The translations under genes and the position numbers were made by a program. From positions 1,900,954-1,964,953 of the forward strand of contig NZ_CP026995.1 of NCBI RefSeq assembly GCF_013407185.1: 64,000 nt of DNA. Reading direction: 5' to 3'. Positions 2,225 through 56,648 of this stretch are shown here, in pieces; positions within the stretch are counted from its first letter, which is position 1, and each line of letters starts with the position of its first letter. The stretch is from Nitrosopumilus ureiphilus. GTDB lineage: Archaea; Thermoproteota; Nitrososphaeria; Nitrososphaerales; Nitrosopumilaceae. The notes beneath the pieces were generated by a model. That model had not been told where the DNA came from. It worked only from the letters and a program-made list of their open reading frames with translations, and ran no database searches.

Positions 2225-2447
2225 TAAGAGTTTGAAGAGGATGAATTTTTATCAAATTATTTACAAATTATTTACAAAATTAACAAAATTTCAGTCATTT
2301 TTGAATAATAATATAAAATTATTTTAAGATTTTTTTACCATTTTCATTGTATAACATCAATGATTAACATATATTCAAACATCGATCCTCGTGATTAAGG
2401 TAAAACATATAACGATGTGTATTATTTCCTCAATATTAGGGATAACT

Positions 2448-3017
2448 ATGGTCGAAAAAAGAATTTTCGTATTTGGACTAGCTGTAGTACTTGCACTAGG
2501 AACATTAGGTTTCAACTGGGTTGAATCCGTCATTCCAACTGCAGATGCACACGGTGTTCAAGCACAACTCCAGAGTCGTTTCATCAGAATTGAGGATGAA
2601 ACCTTTAACAGACAATCCTTACAAACTGGCGAAACCTTGACAGTTCAAGGAACATTAGTCAGTCTTGTAGAAAGAGACCTAAGAGGATGGCTCTCAATAT
2701 TCACAGAGTCAACCAACGCAGGTAACAGATGGGAGATGTTAGCAAGAGATCCACCAGGAAACGTCTTTGACATTCCAGGTAACGCTGTCGTCGATTATTC
2801 ACTATCTGCAAAAGCACTTGAAGCAGGGGTATATCACGTACACACCCAACTCAATGTAGCAAAAGTTGGTCCAGGACTGGGTCCAGGTCAAACAGTAGTC
2901 GTTGAAGGAGAACCAATTATCAAACCAATCCCATATACTAACATCGCATATCAATCAATTATGATAGGTGTTGGATATGTCATTACGTTTGCAACACGAC
3001 CCTGGCAAGTAATCTAA
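2448..3017 (+). CDS. amoB: Ammonia monooxygenase subunit B
   Basis: A 189-residue exported subunit of AMO. The frame is open further upstream, but the ATG at 2448 gives the expected MVEKRIFVFGLAVV signal sequence, and the size fits archaeal AmoB, so this start was chosen. Cleavage after ADA would leave His35 at the mature N-terminus, and the YHVHTQ motif supplies His130 and His132. These are the three ligands of the CuB site in PmoB. A beta-sandwich domain follows, with one C-terminal hydrophobic segment. Archaeal AmoB lacks the second cupredoxin domain of bacterial AmoB. It is transcribed divergently from amoC. Confidence 0.97.
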   Translation: MVEKRIFVFGLAVVLALGTLGFNWVESVIPTADAHGVQAQLQSRFIRIEDETFNRQSLQTGETLTVQGTLVSLVERDLRGWLSIFTESTNAGNRWEMLARDPPGNVFDIPGNAVVDYSLSAKALEAGVYHVHTQLNVAKVGPGLGPGQTVVVEGEPIIKPIPYTNIAYQSIMIGVGYVITFATRPWQVI

Positions 3018-3022
3018 ACAAC

Positions 3023-3044
3023 CCAACCTTTTCCTTTTCATTTT
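3023..3044 (+). terminator. Pyrimidine-rich trailer after amoB
   Basis: This 22-base C/T-rich tract ending in TTTT begins six bases after the amoB stop. It is identical to the tract that follows amoA on the other strand (326-347). It is probably a terminator or a conserved 3' end signal. Confidence 0.5.
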
Positions 3045-3114
3045 TAATTAGTCATTACGAATAGTATAATTATTTTAAATCAAGTTTTATGTTCTAGAAA
3101 AAAGTATTGAAAAC

Positions 3115-3429
3115 ATGTTAAGTTTTAAGATAATCAAATTAGATATTTTTCAAAGTTATTTTTTTGGAGAAGTTGAATTTCGTTCTGACATATTCAAAGT
3201 CAACATACAAAATCAGAGAAGAGGCAAAGTTCTCAAATTACCTTTTGAAATAAAATCAAAAAATGAGAAAGTTATTGTCAGAATGACAGGACCTGATGAT
3301 TTGTTTGTGGAAGATTATCTCCCTTACAGAGGAGAATCAGAATGGTTAGAAATTGACTCAGACGAAATAACGTATTTTCTTGCAGACCATCAAGACCAAT
3401 TTGATACAATTGAGATTATGTTGGAATAA
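3115..3429 (+). CDS. Hypothetical protein, 104 aa
   Basis: An acidic, soluble-looking protein with no signal peptide or membrane segment. Alternating polar and hydrophobic residues throughout suggest mostly beta structure. I do not recognise a family. It follows amoB by about 100 bases, with a TATA-like AT-rich stretch (about 3063-3080) before the ATG. It is followed 38 bases later by another hypothetical gene on the same strand. Its place between amoB and the small membrane genes hints at an ammonia-oxidation context but proves nothing. Confidence 0.7.
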   Translation: MLSFKIIKLDIFQSYFFGEVEFRSDIFKVNIQNQRRGKVLKLPFEIKSKNEKVIVRMTGPDDLFVEDYLPYRGESEWLEIDSDEITYFLADHQDQFDTIEIMLE

Positions 3430-3467
3430 GAGAAAGGACTTTAAGGAAACTATCTGAATTCATCACT

Positions 3468-3998
3468 ATGATATGGCCTGGTACCAGTGATCCGTACAAG
3501 AGGAAAAAAACCTTCAAATTTCTTGCAATTACTGCAGGGATAGGAATAGTCGCTGTAATGTTTACCTTGTTAGTGGTAAATCCATTCATTGCTGGACAAC
3601 CACGAAGTGCTTGTATTAATGATATAGACACAAATTGGAAAATTCAATTTACTGTAGAAATAATTGTAGATAATCTCAAAGTCCCGATTCCCGCAAATGT
3701 TGGAATTACAGATGAATGCCAAAGAGCAATTTACACACTAAGTGATGACGGCACAGTTTATGCAGAATGGACTGAAGATCCGGAATTCGAAATTGGTCAT
3801 TTTATGTGGATTTTCAAAATTCCTCTCAAAGACATGGATCAAACAAAATCGTCTATTTACGTCAACGATAAAGAATCACCCCATTTCTCCCATCATCCTT
3901 TACAAGATGGGCTTCACTACAAAATAGTACTTACCTCAAAGGATTATGATTCATCTAAAGACAAAGACTTCCTTCCAGAACTGAAAACTAGTGATTGA
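3468..3998 (+). CDS. Membrane-anchored extracytoplasmic hypothetical protein
   Basis: 176 residues: a basic N-terminus, one transmembrane helix (about residues 17-38, FLAITAGIGIVAVMFTLLVV), then a domain outside the membrane. That domain contains VPIPANVGITDECQRAIYTLSDDGTVYAEW. This recalls a thaumarchaeal extracytoplasmic module with a proline-glycine motif, a conserved cysteine and a G-x-V/I-H/Y-x-E strand; the resemblance is from memory and is weak evidence. A His-rich patch (HFSHH) lies near the C-terminus. It may take part in envelope redox or metal handling, but no function is assigned. Confidence 0.75.
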   Translation: MIWPGTSDPYKRKKTFKFLAITAGIGIVAVMFTLLVVNPFIAGQPRSACINDIDTNWKIQFTVEIIVDNLKVPIPANVGITDECQRAIYTLSDDGTVYAEWTEDPEFEIGHFMWIFKIPLKDMDQTKSSIYVNDKESPHFSHHPLQDGLHYKIVLTSKDYDSSKDKDFLPELKTSD

Positions 3999-4121
3999 AG
4001 ACTTTGTTCCATAATTAGAAAAACATCCAATTAAAGAACTCTGAAAAATTTGAATTTTTTAAAACACCATAGTTTTCACTAAAAGATATTAAAAATAATG
4101 AAAAGAAGAAAGGAAGTAATT

Positions 4122-4391
4122 TTACCAGTATTTACCGTTGTCTGGAATCAGACCAATGCCTTCTCTTTCAAAGTGTCTGTCCAACTCATCGACCCATCTC
4201 TCACGGTTGTCTTTGTAAGCCCATCCGTGTACACGCAACCAGAATGAGATAATTCCAAGAAGGAATATTGTGAACATCATGGTTCCGAAGATGTAAATCA
4301 TTACATCATAGAATAATGGATCATAGTTTGGTCCCAGTTGTCCTGTAATTGATGACAGGATGCTTAGGAAAGTTCCTACGATAGGAGTCAT
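4122..4391 (-). CDS. Small membrane protein, candidate extra AMO subunit (AmoY/AmoZ type)
   Basis: 89 residues with one strong transmembrane helix (about 30-52, VMIYIFGTMMFTIFLLGIISFWL) and a charged, Trp-rich C-terminal tail (HGWAYKDNRERWVDELDRHFERE). It lies in the amo neighbourhood, on the same strand as amoA, amoX and amoC. Two small helical subunits, AmoY and AmoZ, have been reported in purified archaeal AMO. Size, topology and position fit one of them, but I cannot tell which, and no alignment was possible. It has a TATA-like box at 4415-4422 and shares an upstream 15-base motif with the next gene. Confidence 0.7.
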   Translation of the reverse strand: MTPIVGTFLSILSSITGQLGPNYDPLFYDVMIYIFGTMMFTIFLLGIISFWLRVHGWAYKDNRERWVDELDRHFEREGIGLIPDNGKYW

Positions 4392-4414
4392 GATAATTTG
4401 GCTCTATTTGTACG

Positions 4415-4422
4415 ATATATAC
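4415..4422 (-). promoter_or_regulatory. TATA box of the 89-aa membrane protein gene
   Basis: The minus strand reads GTATATAT 24-31 bases before the ATG at 4391, preceded by an A-rich BRE-like stretch. This fits a leaderless transcript. Confidence 0.55.
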
Positions 4423-4442
4423 ATTTCTTTTATTATCAGAAA

Positions 4443-4457
4443 GTACGAGATCAGTAT
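4443..4457. repeat. 15-base motif, copy 1
   Basis: GTACGAGATCAGTAT occurs here, about 21 bases upstream of the TATA box of the 89-residue membrane protein gene. It recurs identically at 4907-4921, upstream of the 110-residue gene. A 15-base exact match is unlikely by chance within 500 bases, so it may be an operator or activator site. Confidence 0.5.
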
Positions 4458-4501
4458 CCACTAAGAGATAGATAATAAAATAAGAGAAAAGTGAGGTTTG
4501 A

Positions 4502-4834
4502 TTATCCTCTGCCCATTGCTGCGTATTTGCCAGATCTTCCTCTAATGAAGAATGCTCCTGCAATACCACCGAACACTGCACCTGCAATAACTGAGGCACC
4601 AACTACACCACTTGCATCAAGATATGGAGTTCCTGAGCCAGAGGCGGGGTTTGCTTCAGCAGCTTCAATTCTTCTTCTTTGAATTTCAAGTGCTTCCTCT
4701 AAGGTGTACGATCCGGTTTCTCCTTCACTACCAACGTTACCCATGTATTGTGCAAATGCTATTGCATCTTCTGCATAGAGTCCTATAGTGAAGACAGCAA
4801 CTAAGGATGCTGCTAATAGTATTTTTGTATTCAT
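4502..4834 (-). CDS. Small exported membrane protein, second candidate extra AMO subunit
   Basis: 110 residues with a clear signal peptide (MNTKILLAASLVAVFTIGLYAEDAIA, probable cleavage near residue 26-28). A charged helical stretch rich in Glu and Arg follows (about 42-62, EEALEIQRRRIEAAEA). Then comes a Gly/Ala-rich transmembrane helix (about 75-98) and a short basic tail. With the neighbouring 89-residue gene it forms a pair of small membrane proteins in the amo neighbourhood. That is the reason for proposing AmoY/AmoZ; homology has not been tested. The ATG start is the only one that gives the signal sequence. Confidence 0.7.
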   Translation of the reverse strand: MNTKILLAASLVAVFTIGLYAEDAIAFAQYMGNVGSEGETGSYTLEEALEIQRRRIEAAEANPASGSGTPYLDASGVVGASVIAGAVFGGIAGAFFIRGRSGKYAAMGRG

Positions 4835-4906
4835 ACCGTTTACCTGCTCGTTTTGAAGCCAGTGAGTTATTTAACTTTTATTCTAAACCCCAAATTTCGA
4901 TATAAT

Positions 4907-4921
4907 GTACGAGATCAGTAT
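4907..4921. repeat. 15-base motif, copy 2
   Basis: This is identical to 4443-4457. It lies about 33 bases upstream of a TATA-like TTAAATAA (minus strand, 4867-4874) of the 110-residue membrane protein gene, in the divergent region shared with rpS15. It could act on either gene, but copy 1 has only a minus-strand gene beside it. Confidence 0.5.
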
Positions 4922-4958
4922 AAGTAACGTTTAATTCTGTACTTTAATCAGCCAAATC

Positions 4959-5408
4959 ATGGGACGAATGCATACACATAGACATGGAAAGTCACATTCT
5001 ATTAGACCAGCTACATTACGTGCACCCTCATGGATTTCACAAAGTCCTAAAGAAATTGAAGAATTAGTTGTAAAGTACTCCAAAGATGGTTTAACCCCAA
5101 GTCAGATTGGAATTAAATTAAGAGATCAACATTCAATTCCCCTAATCAAACCAATTACCAAAAAAAGTATGGGTGAAATTCTTGAAGAAAATGATTTGAA
5201 ACCAGAAATGCCAGAAGATCTTGAAAACATGGTCAAAAAAGCAGTGGGTCTTCAAAAGCATCTGAAGGAAAACAAAGGTGACAATAGAAATGTGAGATCT
5301 TTGGAATTAATCGAAGCCAAAGTCCACAGATTATCTGTTTACTACAAAAGAATTGAAAGAATTCCTAAAACCTGGAAATATAAATCCGTGGTTGCTCAAT
5401 TAGAATAA
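4959..5408 (+). CDS. rps15: 30S ribosomal protein S15
   Basis: 149 residues of the archaeal/eukaryotic S15p/S13e family. The N-terminus MGRMHTHRHGKSHSIRP is typical of the archaeal proteins. A helical core follows, ending with the S15 signature region NVRSLELIEAKVHRLSVYYKR. S15 binds the central domain of 16S rRNA early in small-subunit assembly. The gene heads an information-processing cluster: its TAA shares one base with the ATG of the DHH nuclease, so the two are likely translated in a coupled way. Confidence 0.97.
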   Translation: MGRMHTHRHGKSHSIRPATLRAPSWISQSPKEIEELVVKYSKDGLTPSQIGIKLRDQHSIPLIKPITKKSMGEILEENDLKPEMPEDLENMVKKAVGLQKHLKENKGDNRNVRSLELIEAKVHRLSVYYKRIERIPKTWKYKSVVAQLE

Positions 5409-6829
5409 TGACAAAATCACTTGATGAGTCACTTTCATATTTCAAAGATAAAATTTTAGATTGCATTAAATCAAAAAAATCAATTTTTGTAACGACCCAT
5501 ATTGATTGTGATGGACTTACGTCTGGAAGTATTATTACCAAAGCTCTAATCAGGGCAGGTGCAAATTGTACTGTTAGAACATCAAAAGAATTTAGTAAAA
5601 ATGTAGTAGAGTCTTTCAAAACAGATTCTAGGGATTTTCATATAGTTACAGATCTAGGAGGAGGTTTTGCAAGCGAACTTGATTCAACTCTAGGAGATAA
5701 TTGGATTGTATTAGATCATCATCAAATTCCAGATAAAGAGATTGATAATCAAAATGTCATAAATGCCTGGAAATATGGAATTGATGGAGGAGTTGAGGTT
5801 TGTGCAGGAGGAATGACATATCTTGCATCAATGGCACTTGATGAAAAAAATTCAGACTTGTCTGCCATTGCAATTGTTTCGGCATTAGGAGACAGACAAG
5901 ATCAGGGAGAAAGGAAATCATTTACTGGAAAAAATTTCGAGATTGCAAATACTGCAAAAGAACAAGGTTTGGTAGACATTGATCTAGATTTATTATTAGT
6001 GGGAAGAGAAACTAGACCTCTTCCAGATGCACTTGCATTTACTTCACAGCCATTTATAGAAGGTCTGACTTGGAATAGAGATGCATGTCTTTCTCTTCTA
6101 AATTCATCAGGAATTAAGCTAAAGGAAGAAGGAAGATGGAGAGTTCCAGCAGAGTTAAACGAGGAAGAAAAAAGACAGGTAATCGAATCAATTACTAAAT
6201 TCACATCAGGCAAAAATGCTACTGAGATAATGTCAGAACTTATTGGATATACCTATACATTTCCAAGAGAAGATAACAGAAGCTTCCTACGTGATGGAAG
6301 AGAATTTTCAACCATGTTAAATTCCTGTGGAAGAATTAATCGTTCAGGTGTTGGAATGGCAGTATGTATGGGAGACAGAAACAAGATACTAAGAGAGGGG
6401 GAAACCATACTAAGAGATTATAGAAAAATGATCAGAGAATACATGAGCATATTATCAAATGAAAGATGGCGAATTTCGGAAAGTGAAACCTGCATCATGG
6501 TAAATGGGGAAGACATAGTACCAGAAACAATGACTGGAACTATATCATCATTAATTGCAGGTTCTCCCAAAAATTCAGGAAAAATCGTAATTTTGAGAAC
6601 AAAGGGAGAAGAAAACACAATAAAGTTCTCTTCAAGAAAATCTTTTGGTTGTAATTCAGACATCAATCTCAGCGAAATAATGAGGGCAGGAGCTGAGAAA
6701 TTTGACGGTATTGGTGGAGGGCACAATGCAGCAGCAGGAGCAAAAATAACTAAAGACAAATTGGACGAATTTCTCAATTATTTAGAAGTAAATGTCGTTA
6801 ACGTGTCAAGTACAAGTAGTTCTCAATAA
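5408..6829 (+). CDS. DHH/DHHA1 phosphoesterase, archaeal RecJ-like
   Basis: 473 residues. The N-terminal DHH domain has HIDCDGLTSG (residues about 28-37), DLGGG and the name-giving VLDHHQIPD, which bind the catalytic metals. The C-terminal DHHA1 domain ends with GIGGGHNAAAGAKI, the substrate-binding glycine motif. Archaeal members include the GINS-associated nuclease GAN and RecJ-like exonucleases acting on single-stranded DNA or RNA. Which subgroup this belongs to cannot be settled by eye. It overlaps rpS15 by one base and the Pcc1 gene by 38 bases, indicating one operon. Confidence 0.9.
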   Translation: MTKSLDESLSYFKDKILDCIKSKKSIFVTTHIDCDGLTSGSIITKALIRAGANCTVRTSKEFSKNVVESFKTDSRDFHIVTDLGGGFASELDSTLGDNWIVLDHHQIPDKEIDNQNVINAWKYGIDGGVEVCAGGMTYLASMALDEKNSDLSAIAIVSALGDRQDQGERKSFTGKNFEIANTAKEQGLVDIDLDLLLVGRETRPLPDALAFTSQPFIEGLTWNRDACLSLLNSSGIKLKEEGRWRVPAELNEEEKRQVIESITKFTSGKNATEIMSELIGYTYTFPREDNRSFLRDGREFSTMLNSCGRINRSGVGMAVCMGDRNKILREGETILRDYRKMIREYMSILSNERWRISESETCIMVNGEDIVPETMTGTISSLIAGSPKNSGKIVILRTKGEENTIKFSSRKSFGCNSDINLSEIMRAGAEKFDGIGGGHNAAAGAKITKDKLDEFLNYLEVNVVNVSSTSSSQ

Positions 6830-45603: not shown

Positions 45604-48600
45604 TTACTGTACAGTTATTGTTGTACTAACTGGTGGTGATAATGCCGTAGGATTATCTACTGATTCCCATACAAATGCGGTTGCTGTGTAGCTACCACTT
45701 TGAGTTGGAATCCATGATAATGCTGGGCTGAATGATTGACCGCTAGATAGTGAACCTGTAATCCATGCTAGTGAGACTGTAACACCGTTACCATCCTGAA
45801 TCTGTACCAAGTATGCAAATGCTTGCTCTCTATCCTGACCATTTGCTAAGTCAGCACTGATTTGCACCTGTTGATCAACTGCAACAGTATCTAAACTGTT
45901 ACCGAATGCGTCAACTGTTCTCAAGTTAGCAGCTGGTGCTCTCTCGAGAGGTGGTACAACAGTACCGATTAGTGAAGTGGCAGTAATATCAAGTTCATCT
46001 GCAGTTGTGTATGGATCAGGTAGTGTATTGTCCTCATATTCTGCGGTGACAGTGTCACCTTCTGCGACTCTGAGTCTGTGACCAGATGATTCGTCAGTTA
46101 CTGTGAAGAACACAGTGCCCTCGAATATTCCGGTTGCCTCATTAGTCTCAGTTACAGTAAGGTCAATACCTCCGGCGTCGGAGTCAGACCACACATCGAC
46201 ATCGAAGTTGTCGACTGATTCTGGATCTAAGTTCATGTCTGGATCAATTACTCTTACAACACCTGTTCCGCTAGCTGGGTAGCTTGCTTCAAGCCACTGT
46301 ACCTCACCGATATTCCATCTGATAAGTGCTGAACCAACTACAGTTTCATCCTCTGAGAATTCAAAGGATACTGTAAGTCCGTCATCATCATCAGTTTGTA
46401 GGAATCCATCAGTTGGGCCTCTGGTATTTTTGTTGTTACCAGAAGCATCACCTGTTCTTGGATTAGTATCGAAACCATTAGTTGCTGTACCTGTAGTGAG
46501 ATCACCGTCTGCATCATGGCTGAAACCGGTGAGTATTACTTCACCAGTAAATATGCCTGTGTCAGTACCTGTCTCGACTAACTTGTATGTGTCAAGGTTG
46601 AATCCTCTAGTTGAGATCTTTATTGGATCTGAATTAGTGTTTCCAATCTCATCAATTAAGTTAGAATCGAAGTTGTGATCAGGTGCGACGATTGTGATGT
46701 AGACTTTATCAGTCCAAGTATAGACTTTTTGGTCGAGTTCAACAGTTGCGCCGAAGTTTGATGTAAAGACTGTCAAGTTGACATCTTCATCTTCTTGTCC
46801 AACAAAGTCAGCTCCACTTGGTCCCCAGTCAGTATATTCGAGAACTATTTCCTCTCCTCTTTCGAGGTTATCATTATTCAATGATTTAGGAATTTCGATG
46901 ACAATCTGGAAGATTCCAGTAGAGTCACCTGTTTCTCTAAAGTCTGATGGTTCAGGATCAAAGTCTGCGGCAGTTACACCGGAGATTGCTTTGTCACCCA
47001 TAGTTGTGGTTGCTGCATCAGAGTCCCACTCGATTACATCGATGTCATAGGTCTCTGCTGAGTCGTTGTCAAGATCCCAGTCAGGTTCAATAATAGTTAG
47101 TATCATGTCACTACCGATAATATAGACAGATTTGTCTGACTGCAAAACACCATTTCGAAGATCGAATGTTGCAGAGTCAGTTACTGTGTTTACATCACCT
47201 GAGGCATCGGTTGGATCTCTGTATTCTACTGTGATAATATCACCTTGTAAAATACAATAGTTTGCACCGGCTGCGGATGCTGTATCAAATCTATCTGATT
47301 CGGAAGTTCCTGAATCACCGTCTAAGCTTGTGAAGACGGTAGTTGCTGGACATTGAGTTGAGGCAGGACCATCAGTATATCTGATGGTAAAGTCAAACTC
47401 GAAGATGCCTGCATCTGGAGCAATCTCAGTGATTGGACCGAATGTTCGAACATCTCCAGTTCCACCTGTGCCTGAAGTATTGTTAGCAACGTTAATTCTC
47501 TGTGTAGTGCTAGTTGTTGTACCACCTGCATGAGCAAGTAGAACAGAGTTAGCGCCTCTTGAGACTGTAATCTTTACAGGTCCAAAGGCATGAGAAGAAT
47601 CAACGTTTTGTGCAATAGTATCTTCACCAGATGCTGAAATGTCAAAGTCAGGATCATTGACTCTTATGTGTATAGTCAAGTCACCATTTCCTAGTGTTTT
47701 AGCATCACTATCAATACTTGTATTACCAATACCAGTTGCGTGGATTGGGAATACAGATTTACTGTTAGGTGTGGATGCACCAGTGGTACCACCAAAGTCA
47801 GCGACTGTACCCCATGGAACTGGGTATACAGTTCTGTCAAGGCTAATAGAACCAGTATTGGCTCTAATGCCTGCAGCATCGCCTACTTCAATAATTTCAC
47901 CAGATGCATCTCTAAAGTCAAGATAGTTTACTTCAATGTCTGTACCGGTAACGGAAGTTGATACTCCCGATGTGCCAGTAAATCCAGATCTCTTACAATA
48001 GTTTGTTGGAATTTGGAAAGCACCAGTAAATACACCTGAATCAGATGCAGTTTCTACTAAAGTGAATCCAGTTTCATCAAGACCGTCATCAATGGCTGCA
48101 TCTACTGGGGTTCCACATGTAACGGAACCTTGTGCAGAGTTGAGCCATCTTTCATCATCAAATGTGATATCTAACAATTGTCCAAGATTGCCAAAACCAA
48201 ATGTTGGTTGGCCAGATCTACCGACGGTATCGAAGGCAGGATCACCACTTGTTGAAACAGTTGTATAGATTTCTAATAAATCTGAATCAGTATTAAGGTC
48301 TGAGTCTTCCAAAGTAATTGTAACAGTATCAGCAACTTTGTAATTGCTTGAATCAAATGATACTACACCAGAGTGTGTTGGAGCTTCTTCCTGATCTGCA
48401 ATTTGTGTACTTACGCCGTCTGCACCCAAGTCAAGATAATTGACTCTTGGTGCATCCTCATCAGTCAAGTCTTCAATTACGATAAAGGTTGCTTCATCGT
48501 CAATTGGAGATAGAGATTCGTAAGTAGTTACGTCAAGGATGTTTAGCTGATTCAACATTACATACTCTAATGTACCTTCAAACGTACTGGTGTTATCACC

Positions 48601-50841
48601 AGTTTCTTCTAATTCCAATCTAATGATTTGGTTAGCAACCCTTTCGGATGCTTGTGCACCATCATCTCTAAATCCGAATGAGAAGAAGTCAATTACGAAT
48701 GGATCAGGAGTTGTATCATCAATAAAGGAACTGTTTGTAACAATCAGCAAGCTGATTGGTGCATTGGCTGCTTGTTCTGAAAACAATCTCAAATTGAGAC
48801 TTGTATTATTGATGTTAGTAATTGATCTAGCATCAACATCATTTGCTACCATAATTGCGGCTTGATTGGCGCCGGGAGATACGGTAGTTGTTGTCAGTGA
48901 ACCATTAACAATATAGACATCTACTGTACCAGCAGTTGAATTTATTGCATCCAGTCCTAAGTTGAGGAAGTTAAATCCATGTAATCGGTTAGTTGCAGAA
49001 GGTCTTGTATCACCAATAGAATCTCGTAATTTTTCAATAGTAGTGTTCAAGTCAATCAATAATGCATTACTTGTTTTATCACCAGTTACTGCAGTGGCAT
49101 TTTCAAATATTGCTCTTTGACTGAATGATTCTACTTTGAAATTTACAGATGTTCTATTTTCACCAAATGTGAAAGATACATCTGCATTACCTACATCGTC
49201 TGCATCTGCATCTAAACCAGTAATACTGGTATACATTGCAGTTGGAGCAGAACTAACACCCAATGTGAATGGAGTTCCGGTTTTCAATGTTGGCAATAGA
49301 GATGTACTATTTGATTGCAAGTCCAAGTCTTCATCTGCTCTGCTATTCTTGTTGGCATCAGAGTCAACTAAGACTACTGGAATCTCTTCACCAGAGCTCC
49401 ATTCATCATCAATTGGCTGAATGTCAATAGTTGCAAAGCCGAATCCGGCTAGAACAGTTACAGGGGTCTCATTATAATCAATTGTAGCAGAGGTTCCTCT
49501 AGCTGCGTTTGAGGTAATTTTGAGAACAGATTTATCTGATTCATCATAAGTACCAAAGACACCGCTATTAGGTCCTTGCTCAGTGATAGTAACTGGAACT
49601 GATCCTCTACGTAGCTCGTTTCCTGCCAAAGAGTTTCCTGTTGTTACACAACTGGTTGCAGTATTAGCAGTCGAACATATGAGTTGAGAATCATCGTTGT
49701 CTTGTATAGTGAGTACTGGGTTTGTTGCGCCTTGTGTATTTGCATTGACACGGAGTAAACCGTTGGTCTCTACCATCAAAGCACTCAATTTTGGCTTGAT
49801 GTTAATTACACCGTTTGCAACTGCATCACCTGTCTGTCCACCGTTCTCATCAAAGACTTGGTAATAGGTACCAAATGATGTAGCGTTGGACTTTTGTGTA
49901 CCAAAGGTCCAAGAGTCTTCATCTGTTGGGTCTATGTTTAACCATAAGTCAGTGACAGTTAGGTGGATTTGAGCATTGCGTGTATATACACTTCTATCCA
50001 AGCTTGCGCCTGCATATGCTTCGACGGTATCAAAAGTAAGTGTTGTTGATTGAACACCACCACCTTTGTCGTATTGTACTACGACGTTACCACCGACGCT
50101 AAGTGGATATAGCTGGATGAAAGGCCAGAATGCAGCAGTACTTGTTGAGACACCTTTGGTACCATTGATACCAATTTGTCCAATTCCTACTGTGCTACTT
50201 GCACCTTGAATGTTAAGCTCTTTTGTTTCTCTTAGTACATTCATTGCTAAAGTACCATTGGTACCACCATCAACACTGATTGTACTACAAACTGCAGTAA
50301 TTGCACCACCGGTTGAAGAACCGTTGACACCAAATCCCGCAGAATTAGATTGTATTGTTCCATTAGTATTGTTATAGAATGGAACTGCAACACCTACGGA
50401 ATCTGAAACTGAAATTCCAAGAAAGTTCTTAACATTTGCATCAGAGGAACCACAGAATGTACCAAAGTCTAAACCTTCACCTTTTGCTTGGGAGGAGGTT
50501 GTAGAATCTGCAATTTGTGCTTGATCTCTGTCTGCAAAGTAACCATACCAGTTACCATCAACGGCTTGAGCCATTCTAAGCTTTTTGCCGTTTACTGAAA
50601 CCTTTGGTTCACCTTTGCCTTGATCTGTATCATCAATATCACTATCAATTACAACGACTTCAATTACTTGAGGTCCTGACATGTAATTATCAAACTGTGA
50701 GTTTTCTGCGGAAACAAATAGGTTAGCGTTGGCTGCATGTGCTGCTGGCATCATAGATGGAGCAACAATTGTCATACCACCGGCTAACATAATTGTCATT
50801 AATGTAAGACTAGTTATTTTTCGTCCTATTTCGTTATTCAT
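45604..50841 (-). CDS. S-layer protein
   Basis: 1,745 residues. A signal peptide (cleavage near AAHA/ANANL) is followed by a very long acidic, Thr/Ser/Asp-rich chain of beta domains. Many contain the pattern SSNYKVADTVTITLEDSDLN or VYTWTDKVYITIVAPDHN with D-x-N/D-x-D calcium-type loops and a G-x-F-x-G turn. There is no C-terminal helix. Size, N-terminus and repeat style match the main S-layer protein of Nitrosopumilus. The negative surface is thought to concentrate ammonium near AMO. It has its own promoter with a palindrome and a pyrimidine-rich trailer. Confidence 0.93.
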   Translation of the reverse strand: MNNEIGRKITSLTLMTIMLAGGMTIVAPSMMPAAHAANANLFVSAENSQFDNYMSGPQVIEVVVIDSDIDDTDQGKGEPKVSVNGKKLRMAQAVDGNWYGYFADRDQAQIADSTTSSQAKGEGLDFGTFCGSSDANVKNFLGISVSDSVGVAVPFYNNTNGTIQSNSAGFGVNGSSTGGAITAVCSTISVDGGTNGTLAMNVLRETKELNIQGASSTVGIGQIGINGTKGVSTSTAAFWPFIQLYPLSVGGNVVVQYDKGGGVQSTTLTFDTVEAYAGASLDRSVYTRNAQIHLTVTDLWLNIDPTDEDSWTFGTQKSNATSFGTYYQVFDENGGQTGDAVANGVINIKPKLSALMVETNGLLRVNANTQGATNPVLTIQDNDDSQLICSTANTATSCVTTGNSLAGNELRRGSVPVTITEQGPNSGVFGTYDESDKSVLKITSNAARGTSATIDYNETPVTVLAGFGFATIDIQPIDDEWSSGEEIPVVLVDSDANKNSRADEDLDLQSNSTSLLPTLKTGTPFTLGVSSAPTAMYTSITGLDADADDVGNADVSFTFGENRTSVNFKVESFSQRAIFENATAVTGDKTSNALLIDLNTTIEKLRDSIGDTRPSATNRLHGFNFLNLGLDAINSTAGTVDVYIVNGSLTTTTVSPGANQAAIMVANDVDARSITNINNTSLNLRLFSEQAANAPISLLIVTNSSFIDDTTPDPFVIDFFSFGFRDDGAQASERVANQIIRLELEETGDNTSTFEGTLEYVMLNQLNILDVTTYESLSPIDDEATFIVIEDLTDEDAPRVNYLDLGADGVSTQIADQEEAPTHSGVVSFDSSNYKVADTVTITLEDSDLNTDSDLLEIYTTVSTSGDPAFDTVGRSGQPTFGFGNLGQLLDITFDDERWLNSAQGSVTCGTPVDAAIDDGLDETGFTLVETASDSGVFTGAFQIPTNYCKRSGFTGTSGVSTSVTGTDIEVNYLDFRDASGEIIEVGDAAGIRANTGSISLDRTVYPVPWGTVADFGGTTGASTPNSKSVFPIHATGIGNTSIDSDAKTLGNGDLTIHIRVNDPDFDISASGEDTIAQNVDSSHAFGPVKITVSRGANSVLLAHAGGTTTSTTQRINVANNTSGTGGTGDVRTFGPITEIAPDAGIFEFDFTIRYTDGPASTQCPATTVFTSLDGDSGTSESDRFDTASAAGANYCILQGDIITVEYRDPTDASGDVNTVTDSATFDLRNGVLQSDKSVYIIGSDMILTIIEPDWDLDNDSAETYDIDVIEWDSDAATTTMGDKAISGVTAADFDPEPSDFRETGDSTGIFQIVIEIPKSLNNDNLERGEEIVLEYTDWGPSGADFVGQEDEDVNLTVFTSNFGATVELDQKVYTWTDKVYITIVAPDHNFDSNLIDEIGNTNSDPIKISTRGFNLDTYKLVETGTDTGIFTGEVILTGFSHDADGDLTTGTATNGFDTNPRTGDASGNNKNTRGPTDGFLQTDDDDGLTVSFEFSEDETVVGSALIRWNIGEVQWLEASYPASGTGVVRVIDPDMNLDPESVDNFDVDVWSDSDAGGIDLTVTETNEATGIFEGTVFFTVTDESSGHRLRVAEGDTVTAEYEDNTLPDPYTTADELDITATSLIGTVVPPLERAPAANLRTVDAFGNSLDTVAVDQQVQISADLANGQDREQAFAYLVQIQDGNGVTVSLAWITGSLSSGQSFSPALSWIPTQSGSYTATAFVWESVDNPTALSPPVSTTITVQ

Positions 50842-51044: not shown

Positions 51045-52388
51045 TTACAGGCTATTTTGTGTCTTGGTTTCTTTGTTTAAGAGACTTTTGTACAATGCAA
51101 TGGCATCTGACTCATCTTTTGGTCCAACAATAACTGCTGAGCCTTTCTTCATAAGGCTTACAGATAATTCATCAGTTCTCATCGACAATCCCAGTCCTCC
51201 TTGATTTTCAACAATGAACCCTTTTTTCTTTGCAATGCTAGATATAGCATTTTCATCAATATCAAAAGTATCAGTTGGGGTAATAGAGTATGTGCGCTTT
51301 CCTCTGTTTCTTCCACACAGTTCTTCTAAAATTAATTCTTCTTTTTTGACAACTTTAAGTTTTCCTGTTCCACAAATTGGACATTCCTCAGCTCTGAATG
51401 TTCTGACACTATTGAAATCAAGATTTTCCAAATCAATGTGAAGTATTCTTGTTGATAGACTTGGTTTTTTCCCAATAATGATTTTTACAGCTTCTGCAAC
51501 TTCAATTCCACCAACTATCGAAAGTATTGATGGATGAACTCCTTCAATACTACATGTTGGTATTGCATCTTCATTTAGATCAGGGAACATACAATAGTAA
51601 CATGCACTTTCTTTTGGTAAAACTGTAAATGCTTGTCCTGAAACTCCAACTGCAGCTCCCGTCACAAAAGGAATTCCAAATTGGACACACGCTTTGTTTA
51701 AAGCATATCTGGCATTAACGCTATCAAGTGCATCAATAACAACATCACATCCTTCAACAACTTCAAGTGCAGTATAGTCATTAACCGAAATAGCCAGAGG
51801 CTCAATCTTACAATCAGGATTTAGTTTCTGTAATTTTTTTGCAGCCACTTCAACTTTAACTTGACCTACATCATCTTCATCAAACATAGTTTGTCTATGT
51901 AAATTAGATAATTCAATTACATCCCTATCAACAATTCTTAATGTTCCAATACCCATTGCAGCTAATCTTGATGTAATTGGATTTCCCAAGCCGCCAGTAC
52001 CAACAACACAGATTTTAGAATTTTTTAATTTCAGTTGTCCATTATAGCCAATCTCTTCAAGCATTACCTGTCGTGAAAATCTGTCTAGTTCTTTTGGAGA
52101 TAGTTCTTCTGAACCGCCAGCTACTGCAGGTAAAATGTAAATTTCATCACCATCTTTAAGAGTAGTTTGCATACCATCAGAGAATTTTGCGTTCTTTCCA
52201 TTGATGTAGATGTTAATCAATGAACGTGGAGTACCATCATTTTCCAAGACACGTCTCTTAAAGTCATCACCCATTAATTCAGAGATTTTTGCAAATGCAT
52301 CAGTTAATGAATCAGCTGAAATCTCAGTTTTTTTCTCGCCTCCACTTTGATTCAAAACAGAAGGTATTGTGAATGTTATATTTGCCAC
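51045..52388 (-). CDS. Fused MoaD/ThiS-like modifier and E1-like (ThiF/MoeB) enzyme
   Basis: 447 residues. Residues 1-92 are a beta-grasp ubiquitin-like domain ending in VAGG (Gly91-Gly92), as in MoaD and SAMPs. It is joined through SEELSPKELDRFSRQ to an E1 domain. The ATP site GTGGLG is at 130-135, DRD at about 154-156, and the catalytic Cys279 is in PTCSIEGV. The zinc cysteines are CYYC (263/266) and CPIC (336/339). A further ~100-residue C-terminal domain is unassigned. The expected chemistry is adenylation of the Gly-Gly end for sulfur transfer or protein conjugation. GTG start overlapping the threonine synthase stop. Confidence 0.9.
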   Translation of the reverse strand: MANITFTIPSVLNQSGGEKKTEISADSLTDAFAKISELMGDDFKRRVLENDGTPRSLINIYINGKNAKFSDGMQTTLKDGDEIYILPAVAGGSEELSPKELDRFSRQVMLEEIGYNGQLKLKNSKICVVGTGGLGNPITSRLAAMGIGTLRIVDRDVIELSNLHRQTMFDEDDVGQVKVEVAAKKLQKLNPDCKIEPLAISVNDYTALEVVEGCDVVIDALDSVNARYALNKACVQFGIPFVTGAAVGVSGQAFTVLPKESACYYCMFPDLNEDAIPTCSIEGVHPSILSIVGGIEVAEAVKIIIGKKPSLSTRILHIDLENLDFNSVRTFRAEECPICGTGKLKVVKKEELILEELCGRNRGKRTYSITPTDTFDIDENAISSIAKKKGFIVENQGGLGLSMRTDELSVSLMKKGSAVIVGPKDESDAIALYKSLLNKETKTQNSL

Positions 52389-53608
52389 TAGTTTACTACC
52401 GCCGATATCTCAGATATGTCTGCTTTCATCACATCAGGCTTTTTTAAGACTTTCATGATTGATTCAGTTGCTTTTAGACCATTACCAGTAACATAGCACA
52501 CCACTTTGTCATTTGCATCAATCTTTCCTTGTTCTACCATTTTCTGAAGAACTGATATTGAGACTCCACCTGCAGGCTCTGTAAATATTCCTTCAGTTTG
52601 TGCAAGTAGTAAAATTGCATCAAGGATTTCTCTGTTGTTACATTCTTCAGCAAAACCATTGTATTGTGCTAAACGTTTTAGAACATATCTACCATCACCA
52701 GGATCACCAATAGCTAAGCTTTTTGCAACAGTGTCAGGATTCTCCACTGGGATTACTTCTTTGGAATTTCTCTTAAATGCATCAACTATTGGTGCGCAAC
52801 CATGTGGTTGTGCTGCAATCATATGCATATTAGAGACGTCATCAAGTAACGAAACGCTTTGTAATTCTTCAAATCCTTTACAAATTGCATTAAGCATAGC
52901 ACCACTCCCCACTGGAATGATTAGTTGATCTGGTACTTGCCATTCTAGTTGTTCTGCAACTTCATATGCAAATGTTTTAGAGCCTTCCACATAATGAGAG
53001 CGCATGTTGATGTTCACTATTCCAATACTTTTACTATCGCCAATTTGTGCAGCAATTCTGTTTGCATCATCATATGTTCCATCAACTGCAATGTAATTTG
53101 CACCATATGACAATGCCTGTGTTATTTTTGCCATCTCAATATTACTTGGAGCAAAAACATGACAAGGTAATCCAGCTTTTGCTGCATGTGCTGCAGTAGC
53201 TGATGCCAAATTACCGGTAGATGCACAACCAACAGATGATAATCCAAATTCCTTTGCTTTGGATACTGCAACTCCTGCAGGTCTATCTTTGAATGAAAAC
53301 GTAGGATTTACAGAATCATTTTTGATGTAAAGATTGTTTAATCCTAATTTTTCCCCGAGATTGTCAGCCTTGATGAGAGGGGTCATTCCAGCACCAATGC
53401 TGACAATGTTGGATTTGTTCTCTATGGGTAATAATTCAAAGTATCTCCAATAGGTGTGGTCACGATTGGTAAATGTGTTCTTAGTAATTGCAGGAAAATC
53501 ATACTTTACATCAAGTGGCCCAAAACACTTATCACAAATATACTTGAAAGCATCATCATAATCTTTTTTACATTCTCTACATTGCAATGATGTTCTAGTC
53601 AAGATCAA
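52388..53608 (-). CDS. thrC: Threonine synthase
   Basis: 406 residues of a fold-type II PLP enzyme with an N-terminal zinc-ribbon-like segment (CRECKKDYDDAFKYICDKCFGPL), as in archaeal ThrC. The PLP lysine lies in NPTFSFKDRPAG, the SxGN loop in CASTGNLASATAAHAAK, and the phosphate loop in PVGSGAMLNAI. It makes threonine from O-phosphohomoserine. The TAG stop overlaps the GTG start of the fused MoaD-E1 gene, suggesting co-transcription and hinting at shared sulfur/amino-acid metabolism. Confidence 0.93.
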   Translation of the reverse strand: MILTRTSLQCRECKKDYDDAFKYICDKCFGPLDVKYDFPAITKNTFTNRDHTYWRYFELLPIENKSNIVSIGAGMTPLIKADNLGEKLGLNNLYIKNDSVNPTFSFKDRPAGVAVSKAKEFGLSSVGCASTGNLASATAAHAAKAGLPCHVFAPSNIEMAKITQALSYGANYIAVDGTYDDANRIAAQIGDSKSIGIVNINMRSHYVEGSKTFAYEVAEQLEWQVPDQLIIPVGSGAMLNAICKGFEELQSVSLLDDVSNMHMIAAQPHGCAPIVDAFKRNSKEVIPVENPDTVAKSLAIGDPGDGRYVLKRLAQYNGFAEECNNREILDAILLLAQTEGIFTEPAGGVSISVLQKMVEQGKIDANDKVVCYVTGNGLKATESIMKVLKKPDVMKADISEISAVVN

Positions 53609-54748: not shown

Positions 54749-56016
54749 GGTTCTGTGAAGTCATGGAGACCTCGACTTTGATACATCTACTATCTGGATT
54801 TCCACACCATCATAGTTTAATGATTTGGGTTCCATCATTCGTGAGAAAAGTTCACTTGTCGCTTCACCTGTATCGCCTCTAGCATGGTTAAACCTAGACC
54901 ACGCCTTGTGGGCAATGTTCATGGATGCAACTACATCCTTGTCCATGCTCTTGCCACAATTAGTGCACAATAATTTACGTCTGTTTTGCCTGTCCTCTTG
55001 GATTCTCTTTCCGCATATTGGACACAGCTTGCTTGTGCGTTTTAGGTCAACAAAGACAACTGGGATTTCAATCCACAATGCCTTGTATTCCATCTGTCTC
55101 TGCAGTTCATAAAACTGCCAGCCGTTTAACTTTCTTCTGTACTTGTTTCCCTGACCATTTCCCTTTCTGTACAGTTTTCTGATTCCCTTCAAGTCCTCAA
55201 AAGCAATTGCAGATTTTGTCTTTACTGCATGATTCACAATATCTTTTGAGATTTTGTGGATGAACTGTCTTGTCCTATTCTGCAGTCTTTGTTGCAGATT
55301 CTTGTAGTATTGTCTCTTCTTTCTGTGATCGTTTCTTTTGAATCCTGCTCTGGCATGAATTGTGTTTTGTTTGATTGAGAGTAACTTGTTTGTCTTGTAG
55401 AATGTTACTAGACTGTCATTGCCACATGTTACGTTTCTTAGGTTTCTGTCTATTCCAACTATCTTGGTACATTCTATCTCTTCAATCTCTTTTGAGATAT
55501 ATAGACTGATGTTGAGGGTAGTCAGTGAGAATGAATGTACAGTCATGGTTGGGTCTGACAGTATTTTTAGAGTGTGATTATTTAGCAGGATGTTTACAGA
55601 CTGATGATACTTGAATGGGATTGACAATAATGAACCGTTAATTTTTATTCCATAGCAGTTTGTCAGATATTGCTTTCTGACAAATGGTGACTTTGTTTTT
55701 CTGCCTCTCTTGATTGACTGTTTCATTTGTGAGAGCCTGCCACATGCTTGTGATATGGCGTTTAGTTTGTAGGATGATAAAATATCATATCTGGATAGCT
55801 CATGGTATGATAACATGGAAAGTCTTTTCAGTGTAGAGCAGTTGTTTTCTAATCCAATTCTGATACAATGGTTTACCATTTTACGGAATGTTTCCATCAT
55901 GGAATCTAAATCATGGTTTTGTGGAACATTCTGTTTTATTGACTTGATTGCCTTCAACAATTATCATTATTTATTATTTTAATTAAGGTTTCAGGTTTCC
56001 ATAACTTCACAGAACC
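54749..56016 (-). mobile_element. tnpB-carrying insertion element with inverted ends
   Basis: An 18-base sequence at 55999-56016 (CCATAACTTCACAGAACC) recurs in inverse orientation, with one mismatch, at 54749-54766, overlapping the tnpB stop. Between them lies only tnpB. No tnpA is present, so this is an IS1341-like, tnpB-only unit. Inverted ends are not a usual feature of IS200/IS605 elements, so the exact borders remain a guess. It sits 26 bases upstream of hisI, separating it from hisF. Confidence 0.6.
54761..55960 (-). CDS. tnpB: TnpB, RNA-guided nuclease of IS200/IS605-type elements
   Basis: 399 residues with an apparently complete active site. RuvC-I Asp171 is in IVGIDRNLRNVTC, RuvC-II Glu255 in IAFEDLKGIRK, the zinc finger is CPIC (313/316) and CTNC (332/335), and RuvC-III Asp342 is in DKDVVASMNIAHKAW. 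TnpB proteins cut DNA next to a transposon-adjacent motif using an RNA made from their own 3' end. Here the last ~120 coding bases could form that RNA, with small hairpins visible. A TTG start is used. No frameshift or stop interrupts it. Confidence 0.92.
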   Translation of the reverse strand: MLKAIKSIKQNVPQNHDLDSMMETFRKMVNHCIRIGLENNCSTLKRLSMLSYHELSRYDILSSYKLNAISQACGRLSQMKQSIKRGRKTKSPFVRKQYLTNCYGIKINGSLLSIPFKYHQSVNILLNNHTLKILSDPTMTVHSFSLTTLNISLYISKEIEEIECTKIVGIDRNLRNVTCGNDSLVTFYKTNKLLSIKQNTIHARAGFKRNDHRKKRQYYKNLQQRLQNRTRQFIHKISKDIVNHAVKTKSAIAFEDLKGIRKLYRKGNGQGNKYRRKLNGWQFYELQRQMEYKALWIEIPVVFVDLKRTSKLCPICGKRIQEDRQNRRKLLCTNCGKSMDKDVVASMNIAHKAWSRFNHARGDTGEATSELFSRMMEPKSLNYDGVEIQIVDVSKSRSP

Positions 56017-56028
56017 CATTTGATTATT

Positions 56029-56054
56029 GTTTATAAGTAAGAAATTTCTTACTT
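56029..56054 (+). promoter_or_regulatory. Promoter and 20-base palindromic operator of the toxin-antitoxin pair
   Basis: GTTTATAAG (56029-56037) is a TATA box. Overlapping its end is a perfect 20-base palindrome, AAGTAAGAAATTTCTTACTT (56035-56054), five bases before the antitoxin ATG at 56060. Binding there would block transcription, as expected for autoregulation by an AbrB-type antitoxin. Confidence 0.7.
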
Positions 56055-56059
56055 TACGT

Positions 56060-56320
56060 ATGAGCGAATCTACACTGAAAACAGTGAGTGTGTCTGAAAA
56101 GGGTCAAATCGCAATACCAAAAGAGATTCAGATACTACTTGGAATCAAAAAAGGAGACAGATTAGTGCTTACTGCAAAAAATGAAAAACTGTTGATTCAA
56201 AAAGCTACAAAAGTTGCAAAACAAATTGAGGTGGATTTTGGACCTTTGACAAAAATGTCTGAACAAACTGCAAAAAAACTGTGGGACAATAAAGATGACG
56301 AGATCTGGAACAGTTTTTGA
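56060..56320 (+). CDS. AbrB/SpoVT-type antitoxin
   Basis: 86 residues: LKTVSVSEKGQIAIPKEIQILLGIKKGDRLVLTAKNEKLLIQK is a swapped-hairpin AbrB DNA-binding domain. A C-terminal helical tail (about 55-86, KMSEQTAKKLWDNKDDEIWNSF) would bind and block the toxin. The ATG at 56060 was chosen over one 11 codons upstream because the palindromic operator and TATA box would otherwise lie inside the gene. It overlaps the toxin gene by 26 bases, typical of coupled toxin-antitoxin pairs. Confidence 0.88.
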   Translation: MSESTLKTVSVSEKGQIAIPKEIQILLGIKKGDRLVLTAKNEKLLIQKATKVAKQIEVDFGPLTKMSEQTAKKLWDNKDDEIWNSF

Positions 56321-56648
56321 GTCTGGAGATATTGTACTTGTTCCGTTTCCATTTACTAATATGTCACAGACAAAACTACGACCAGTTTTCATACTGTCAA
56401 ATAGAACATACAATAGATCTTCATCAGACTTTGTATGCTGCGGTATTACTTCAAATCTGAGTAACAAAGATCATTCCGTTTTACTAGATCTAAAAGACAT
56501 GAAAGAAGGAACCATTCCAAAAAAGAGTAGAATAAAATTCAACAAGATATTTACCTTAGAAAAAACATTGATCATAAAAAAAGTTGGCAGTGTAAATTCA
56601 AAAATATTAAAATCTGTAAAGTCATCACTTTTTTTGTTACTTGGGTAA
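56295..56648 (+). CDS. MazF/PemK-type toxin endoribonuclease
   Basis: 117 residues: SGDIVLVPFPFTNMSQTKLRPVFILSN is the MazF/PemK N-terminal signature, followed by FVCCGITSNL, the position of the catalytic Ser/Thr, and a C-terminal helix. Such toxins cut mRNA at short sequences. The ATG lies within the antitoxin gene. The pair is on the opposite strand to the his genes and lies between hisF and the tnpB element, so it was probably inserted there. Confidence 0.88.
   Translation: MTRSGTVFESGDIVLVPFPFTNMSQTKLRPVFILSNRTYNRSSSDFVCCGITSNLSNKDHSVLLDLKDMKEGTIPKKSRIKFNKIFTLEKTLIIKKVGSVNSKILKSVKSSLFLLLG

Follow-up and report, generated by a model that had tools for sequence, protein, structure and literature searches.

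A ubiquitin-like protein joined to an E1 enzyme in Nitrosopumilus as a probable proteolytic precursor

A gene of Nitrosopumilus ureiphilus, lying in the 64,000-nucleotide stretch of DNA analysed here (the window), encodes a ubiquitin-like (Ubl) domain that ends in Gly-Gly and is followed, in the same polypeptide, by an E1-like adenylating domain and a TBP-like C-terminal domain. The fusion is best read as a linear precursor, with a SAMP/Urm1-like Ubl standing ahead of its own E1. It would be cut by a JAMM metalloprotease, its E1 would charge the Ubl so released, and the charged Ubl would serve tRNA thiolation and possibly lysine conjugation. Taken whole, this account is rather more probable than its denial; its parts do not all carry the same weight. 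The architecture, its conservation, the gene inventory and the order of evolutionary events are observed, whereas cleavage, the JAMM responsible, the source of sulfur and the acceptor are inferred.

Architecture of the fusion protein

The reading frame lies on the minus strand, with a GTG start at 52388 and a stop at 51045. The plus-strand frame over the same interval (51045-52388) is broken by many stops, and was rejected as coding. The host genome (G000) is complete, at 2.17 Mb, and belongs to the Nitrosopumilus group; in a tree of E1 domains, the closest relative is the E1 of Nitrosopumilus salaria. The features of the locus are these:

51045-52388, minus: Ubl-E1-TBP fusion gene, 447 amino acids; orthologues begin at the matching Met
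52113-52388, minus: N-terminal ubiquitin-like domain, SAMP1/MoaD-type beta-grasp, residues 1-92 (Pfam ThiS; SAMP1 and moaD_arch models; nearest solved structures CysO-type proteins, 3dwg and 4n6e)
52113-52118, minus: Gly91-Gly92 after LPAVA, predicted cleavage/activation site (invariant in 87/87; outgroup Ubls stop right there)
52080-52112, minus: linker, residues 93-103, varying in length and sequence (50 distinct versions, 10-48 amino acids; pLDDT < 50 at 88-111)
51369-52079, minus: E1-like adenylating domain of the MoeB/ThiF/UbaA superfamily, residues 104-340 (PF00899, 2.2e-72; ThiF 1zud, MoeB 1jw9)
51552-51554, minus: Cys279, predicted catalytic cysteine (invariant; aligns with the ThiF cysteine)
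51591-51602, minus: zinc CxxC, Cys263/Cys266 (invariant)
51372-51383, minus: zinc CxxC, Cys336/Cys339 (invariant)
51048-51368, minus: TBP-like C-terminal domain, residues 341-447, with invariant EELC(358)GR...GKRT (TBP 2z8u: profile E=6.6e-4, VIA-align Z 9.2)
52388-53608, minus: thrC-type PLP enzyme directly upstream of the fusion (PRK08197, 309.5 bits, cut-off 303)

Pfam places ThiS at residues 49-92 (1.8e-8) and ThiF at 104-337 (2.2e-72). This confirms the central observation of the initial annotation, a Ubl domain ending in Gly-Gly and fused to an E1. The Ubl part scores above the cut-off with PF02597, and at 48.5 bits with the SAMP1 model, below its cut-off of 60.

The E1 domain holds every residue by which the MoeB/ThiF/UbaA superfamily is recognized: the ATP loop, the Arg/Lys/Asp set, the catalytic Cys and the two CxxC pairs. 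Across a 38-row alignment of fusions, the glycines of the Gly-rich ATP loop (G130, G132, G133, G135), D154, R165, K178, D222, Cys279 and the zinc cysteines (263, 266, 336, 339) are all invariant, as is Gly91-Gly92; for the GG and the cysteines, the same invariance is found in a larger set of 85-87 rows. Cys279 lines up with the ThiF cysteine in "NCRTAGV." The complete ATP site, Cys279 and the zinc cysteines, reported earlier for this one protein, are thus shared by the aligned fusions. Scores with the curated equivalog models remain under their cut-offs for MoeB (225.6 against 449 bits), UbaA (222.2 against 450) and ThiF (218.1 against 275), and because of this the domain is given none of those three names. 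A plasmid search returned distant MoeB/ThiF-type matches only.

The C-terminal 100 or so residues, which the initial annotation had left unassigned, are TBP-like, both by profile and by fold. The match to 2z8u rules out an unknown fold for this domain. Within it, Cys358 (51315-51317, minus strand) is invariant in 85/85 of the rows that reach it; a persulfide or thiol role is possible.

The Gly-Gly junction and its processing

The motif LPAV(A/S)GG is kept in 87/87 fused orthologues (families f1, f2, f3 and f5). Conservation of the two glycines among orthologues had been set beforehand as a test by which the reading of the initial annotation could be refuted, and it was passed. Behind the GG stand 50 different linkers of 10 to 48 amino acids, one of them with a Ser/Asn-rich run. 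In the predicted structure, the GG and linker (residues 88-111) are the sole internal stretch of very low confidence (pLDDT < 50), as would be expected of an exposed site.

Natural history supplies a view of this junction before it became one. In seven outgroup loci (families f6, f7, f11 and f14), a reading frame of its own encodes the Ubl, with a stop codon directly after the GG and the E1 gene next. The fusion thus arose when the stop codon that followed an already functional Gly-Gly terminus was lost. In the E1 tree, the fused state takes three changes: one in the thaumarchaeal group, one for an independent fusion (L194), and one for a later split. The split lineage (L129/L151, support 99/85) is nested among fused ones. 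The Ubls that have been secondarily split off in L153 and L151 retain 8 and 15 residues beyond the GG, and these short tails would also have to be trimmed.

A Gly-Gly inside a fusion cannot, of course, be adenylated. The initial annotation had reasoned that the carboxylate must be free, and had offered a JAMM enzyme as the candidate protease. The reasoning is supported by the two JAMMs that the genome encodes, and by precedent. Both in vivo and in vitro, HvJAMM1 cuts SAMP1-MoaE exactly after the GG, and the fusion is inactive if left uncut (PMC4443979); CsJAMM of Caldiarchaeum cleaves its own SAMP precursors (PMC6043591). Precursor processing is favoured because of these precedents, because the fused GG is not open to adenylation, and because the GG-linker looks, in the model, to be exposed. 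It is very likely that the fusion is processed as a precursor, and likely, if a little less so, that a JAMM does the processing. The literature searched contained no work, proteomic or biochemical, on the fusion protein in Thaumarchaeota.

Family searches of the genome give the inventory from which such a pathway could be assembled. They find two Ubl domains and one full-length E1. The second Ubl is N-terminal to the KEOPS subunit Cgi121, with an internal HGG (L002 982-1755, minus strand; G000:C1:1853998), and its GG is invariant among the orthologous fusions aligned. In one relative (L203), the Ubl-Cgi121 frame is broken 7 residues beyond the GG, where an assembly error is possible; this tail, too, would have to be removed. 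Both Ubls of the genome thus carry their GG internally, so that neither has, as encoded, a free C-terminus without proteolysis.

The search for JAMM proteases suggested at the outset found two (Prok-JAB), both with intact HSHP-x7-S-x2-D metal motifs. For one of them (JAMM1, G000:C1:1594361), PfJAMM1 is the closest solved structure (3e-15); it is desampylase-like at 52.9 bits, under a cut-off of 130. Here the fusion has no JAMM gene in its neighbourhood, which counts against the precursor reading. Across the class, JAMM (Prok-JAB) is found in 146/150 genomes; the three f7 genomes sampled have none, and the Ubls of family f7 end at a GG-stop. This distribution fits Ubl processing, but is confounded by phylogeny. 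In the L194 relative, an operon (2274-5424, plus strand) holds a cystathionine gamma-synthase-family enzyme, a JAMM and the independent fusion, here Ubl-E1-rhodanese; the JAMM and fusion genes overlap by 4 nt. The operon looks like a protein-thiocarboxylate sulfur pathway.

The events proposed for the thaumarchaeal precursor are then as follows. A JAMM encoded elsewhere, the PfJAMM1/desampylase-like JAMM1 being the top candidate, would cut after Gly92, yielding, in equimolar amounts, E1-TBP and a free Ubl with VAGG at its C-terminus. The E1 would adenylate the C-terminus of the Ubl, and Cys279 would help turn the adenylated Ubl into a thiocarboxylate, with sulfur from a rhodanese-type donor. 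The same processing would free the second Ubl from Cgi121, giving the single E1 two substrates. This is unlikely to be the "self-contained" system of the initial annotation, since a separate protease, sulfur source and acceptor are needed.

Acceptors for the charged Ubl

The phrase "MoaD chemistry," also from the initial annotation, fails in its molybdopterin sense. MoaE is absent: PF02391 gives nothing at E<=0.1 in the genome, and control genomes do match. A molybdopterin role was rejected for this reason. One relative does bear Moco genes, and its MoaD is a separate protein. The Moco operon of that relative, a member of the Nitrosopumilaceae (L102 172-2803, minus strand), contains a MoaC-MoaB fusion and a MoaD-GG-MoaE fusion; this MoaD, apart from the fused Ubl-E1, is a third Ubl, again a GG-fusion.

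Under the preferred reading, the Ubl thiocarboxylate would supply an NcsA/TtuA-type tRNA 2-thiolase. The genome encodes a thiolase of this type (L166), which matches the U34-tRNA thiolase 6scy at 1e-50 and scores 190 with the NcsA equivalog, where 500 is the cut-off. Rhodanese domains are plentiful. The NcsA gene is not linked to the fusion, and it speaks against a tRNA role that the conserved neighbour is thrC, and no tRNA gene. MmNcsA can, further, use inorganic sulfide in vitro (PMC10067955), so that the presence of NcsA is no proof of a Ubl donor. The case for tRNA thiolation as the main role of the E1-charged Ubl stands at an even chance, or slightly above it.

The released Ubl may also be conjugated to lysines, as by UbaA/SAMP in Haloferax. 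It can be argued that such sampylation-like conjugation is the main role of the Ubl, and that the fusion just couples the dosage of E1 and modifier. A single E1 together with a pair each of Ubls and JAMMs is, indeed, the Haloferax kit (PMC4443979). With NcsA present as a sulfur acceptor, we regard conjugation as the main role as unlikely.

Another alternative keeps the JAMM-type release, but makes the Ubl mainly a thiocarboxylate carrier for a PLP enzyme, either the adjacent ThrC-type protein or an unlinked acceptor. The overlap with thrC had been remarked on earlier, and the neighbour proves to be real and deeply conserved. The thrC stop and the GTG of the fusion overlap by a single base, the first of the GTG (TAGTG), and the order thrC-ubl-e1 holds, fused or split, in 93/93 lineage loci with room to show it, in 8 families. 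A carrier would also suit the CysO-type structures nearest to the Ubl, the second ThrC homologue (L148, TIGR00260 192 bits), which could provide threonine, and the L194 operon, where a Ubl-E1 fusion has a JAMM and a cystathionine gamma-synthase-family enzyme for neighbours. The genome yielded no full MetB/MetY-type enzyme (the best partial match has 28.8 bits), and this points the same way. However, the adjacent ThrC passes the cut-off for true threonine synthases, a CysK/CysM-like enzyme (L147) exists in the genome, and unrelated amino-acid genes stay together in compact archaeal operons; hisI, for example, adjoins the thrC-fusion locus. The PLP neighbour here is ThrC-type, and JAMM, present in the operon of the L194 relative, is absent from this one. 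Plain operon conservation is the more likely meaning of the thrC link, and a carrier devoted mainly to a PLP enzyme is unlikely. The more specific proposal, that Ubl-COSH from the E1 serves the adjoining ThrC-type enzyme of ammonia-oxidising archaea in a third protein-thiocarboxylate amino-acid pathway (making, for example, homocysteine from O-phosphohomoserine), with all Ubls released by JAMM, is very unlikely.

Other features of the window surround this locus. A TnpB-like (IS200/IS605) open reading frame (54761-55960, minus strand) lies between hisI and the upstream his genes, and overlaps the start of the hisI frame by 26 nt. Overlapping AbrB-like antitoxin and MazF/PemK-like toxin frames (56027-56648, plus strand) form, by eye, a probable toxin-antitoxin pair. 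On the other side, at 45604-50841 (minus strand), a protein of 1745 amino acids with a signal-like N-terminus and no Pfam match is probably a large surface protein.

It is very unlikely that the fusion stays uncut, its N-terminal Ubl being the regulatory pseudo-substrate of the initial annotation and its E1 acting on another Ubl: the fusion is old and stable in the E1 tree, as this would have it, but the one other Ubl in the genome likewise has its GG inside a fusion, which would leave the E1 without a substrate, and an invariant LPAVAGG before a free linker, outgroup Ubls ending at a GG-stop and natural splits would all be unexpected.

Known systems and implications

The fusion had been thought possibly undescribed. 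Its architecture is, in fact, already known. "Ubl-E1-TBP in Thaumarchaeota" is listed, as is the Ubl-Cgi121 fusion, by Makarova and Koonin in their 2010 paper (PMC2948915), and a 2024 fusion survey has a MoaD-MoeB fusion, cluster 356.1, in 61/98 Thaumarchaeota (PMC11237513). Domain order and lineage are identical, and the gene is a member of this group. Passages of both papers on the fusion give the architecture; conservation of the GG, the lack of free Ubls and processing of the fusion are not discussed in them. New here are the 87/87 invariant GG with its variable linker, the outgroup GG-stop, the lack of any free-GG Ubl, and the sole E1 with two JAMMs and no MoaE.

The mechanism has close precedents as well. 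SAMP1-MoaE with HvJAMM1 (PMC4443979) and the Deinococcus MoaD-MoaE with DRJAMM (PMC8832034) likewise have an N-terminal Ubl, an internal GG and a JAMM in the genome, and in all of these the fused form is expected to be inactive. The partner here is, however, an E1 and not MoaE, and cleavage is what we infer; the Haloferax fusion was engineered. The ubiquitin/SAMP precursors of Caldiarchaeum subterraneum (PMC6043591) also carry residues beyond the GG and undergo JAMM-type trimming, but these are short tails, where here an entire E1 domain follows. With TtuA/TtuB/TtuC and Urm1/Uba4/Ncs6 the likeness lies in a genome that encodes an NcsA/TtuA-family thiolase alongside one E1 and a Ubl; the genes here are unlinked, the Ubl is fused, and the C-terminal domain is TBP-like, not rhodanese.

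CysO-CysM-Mec+ and HcyS-MetY are protein-thiocarboxylate pathways, in which CysO serves CysM and HcyS serves MetY. Here, too, a CysO-type Ubl, an E1, a JAMM and a PLP enzyme occur in one cell, and the PLP enzyme adjoins; but it is a threonine synthase, the JAMM gene lies elsewhere in the genome, and transfer of sulfur is putative.

Ammonia-oxidising archaea of this kind rank with the most abundant archaea on Earth. Should the precursor reading be true, every Ubl in this genome, and probably family-wide, would be born as a fused precursor, as is eukaryotic ubiquitin, and one protease would gate all Ubl chemistry. A role for archaeal JAMMs in maturation, beyond the removal of modifiers, would then become directly testable. 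The conserved thrC-ubl-e1 order is a lead on a sulfur or regulatory link.
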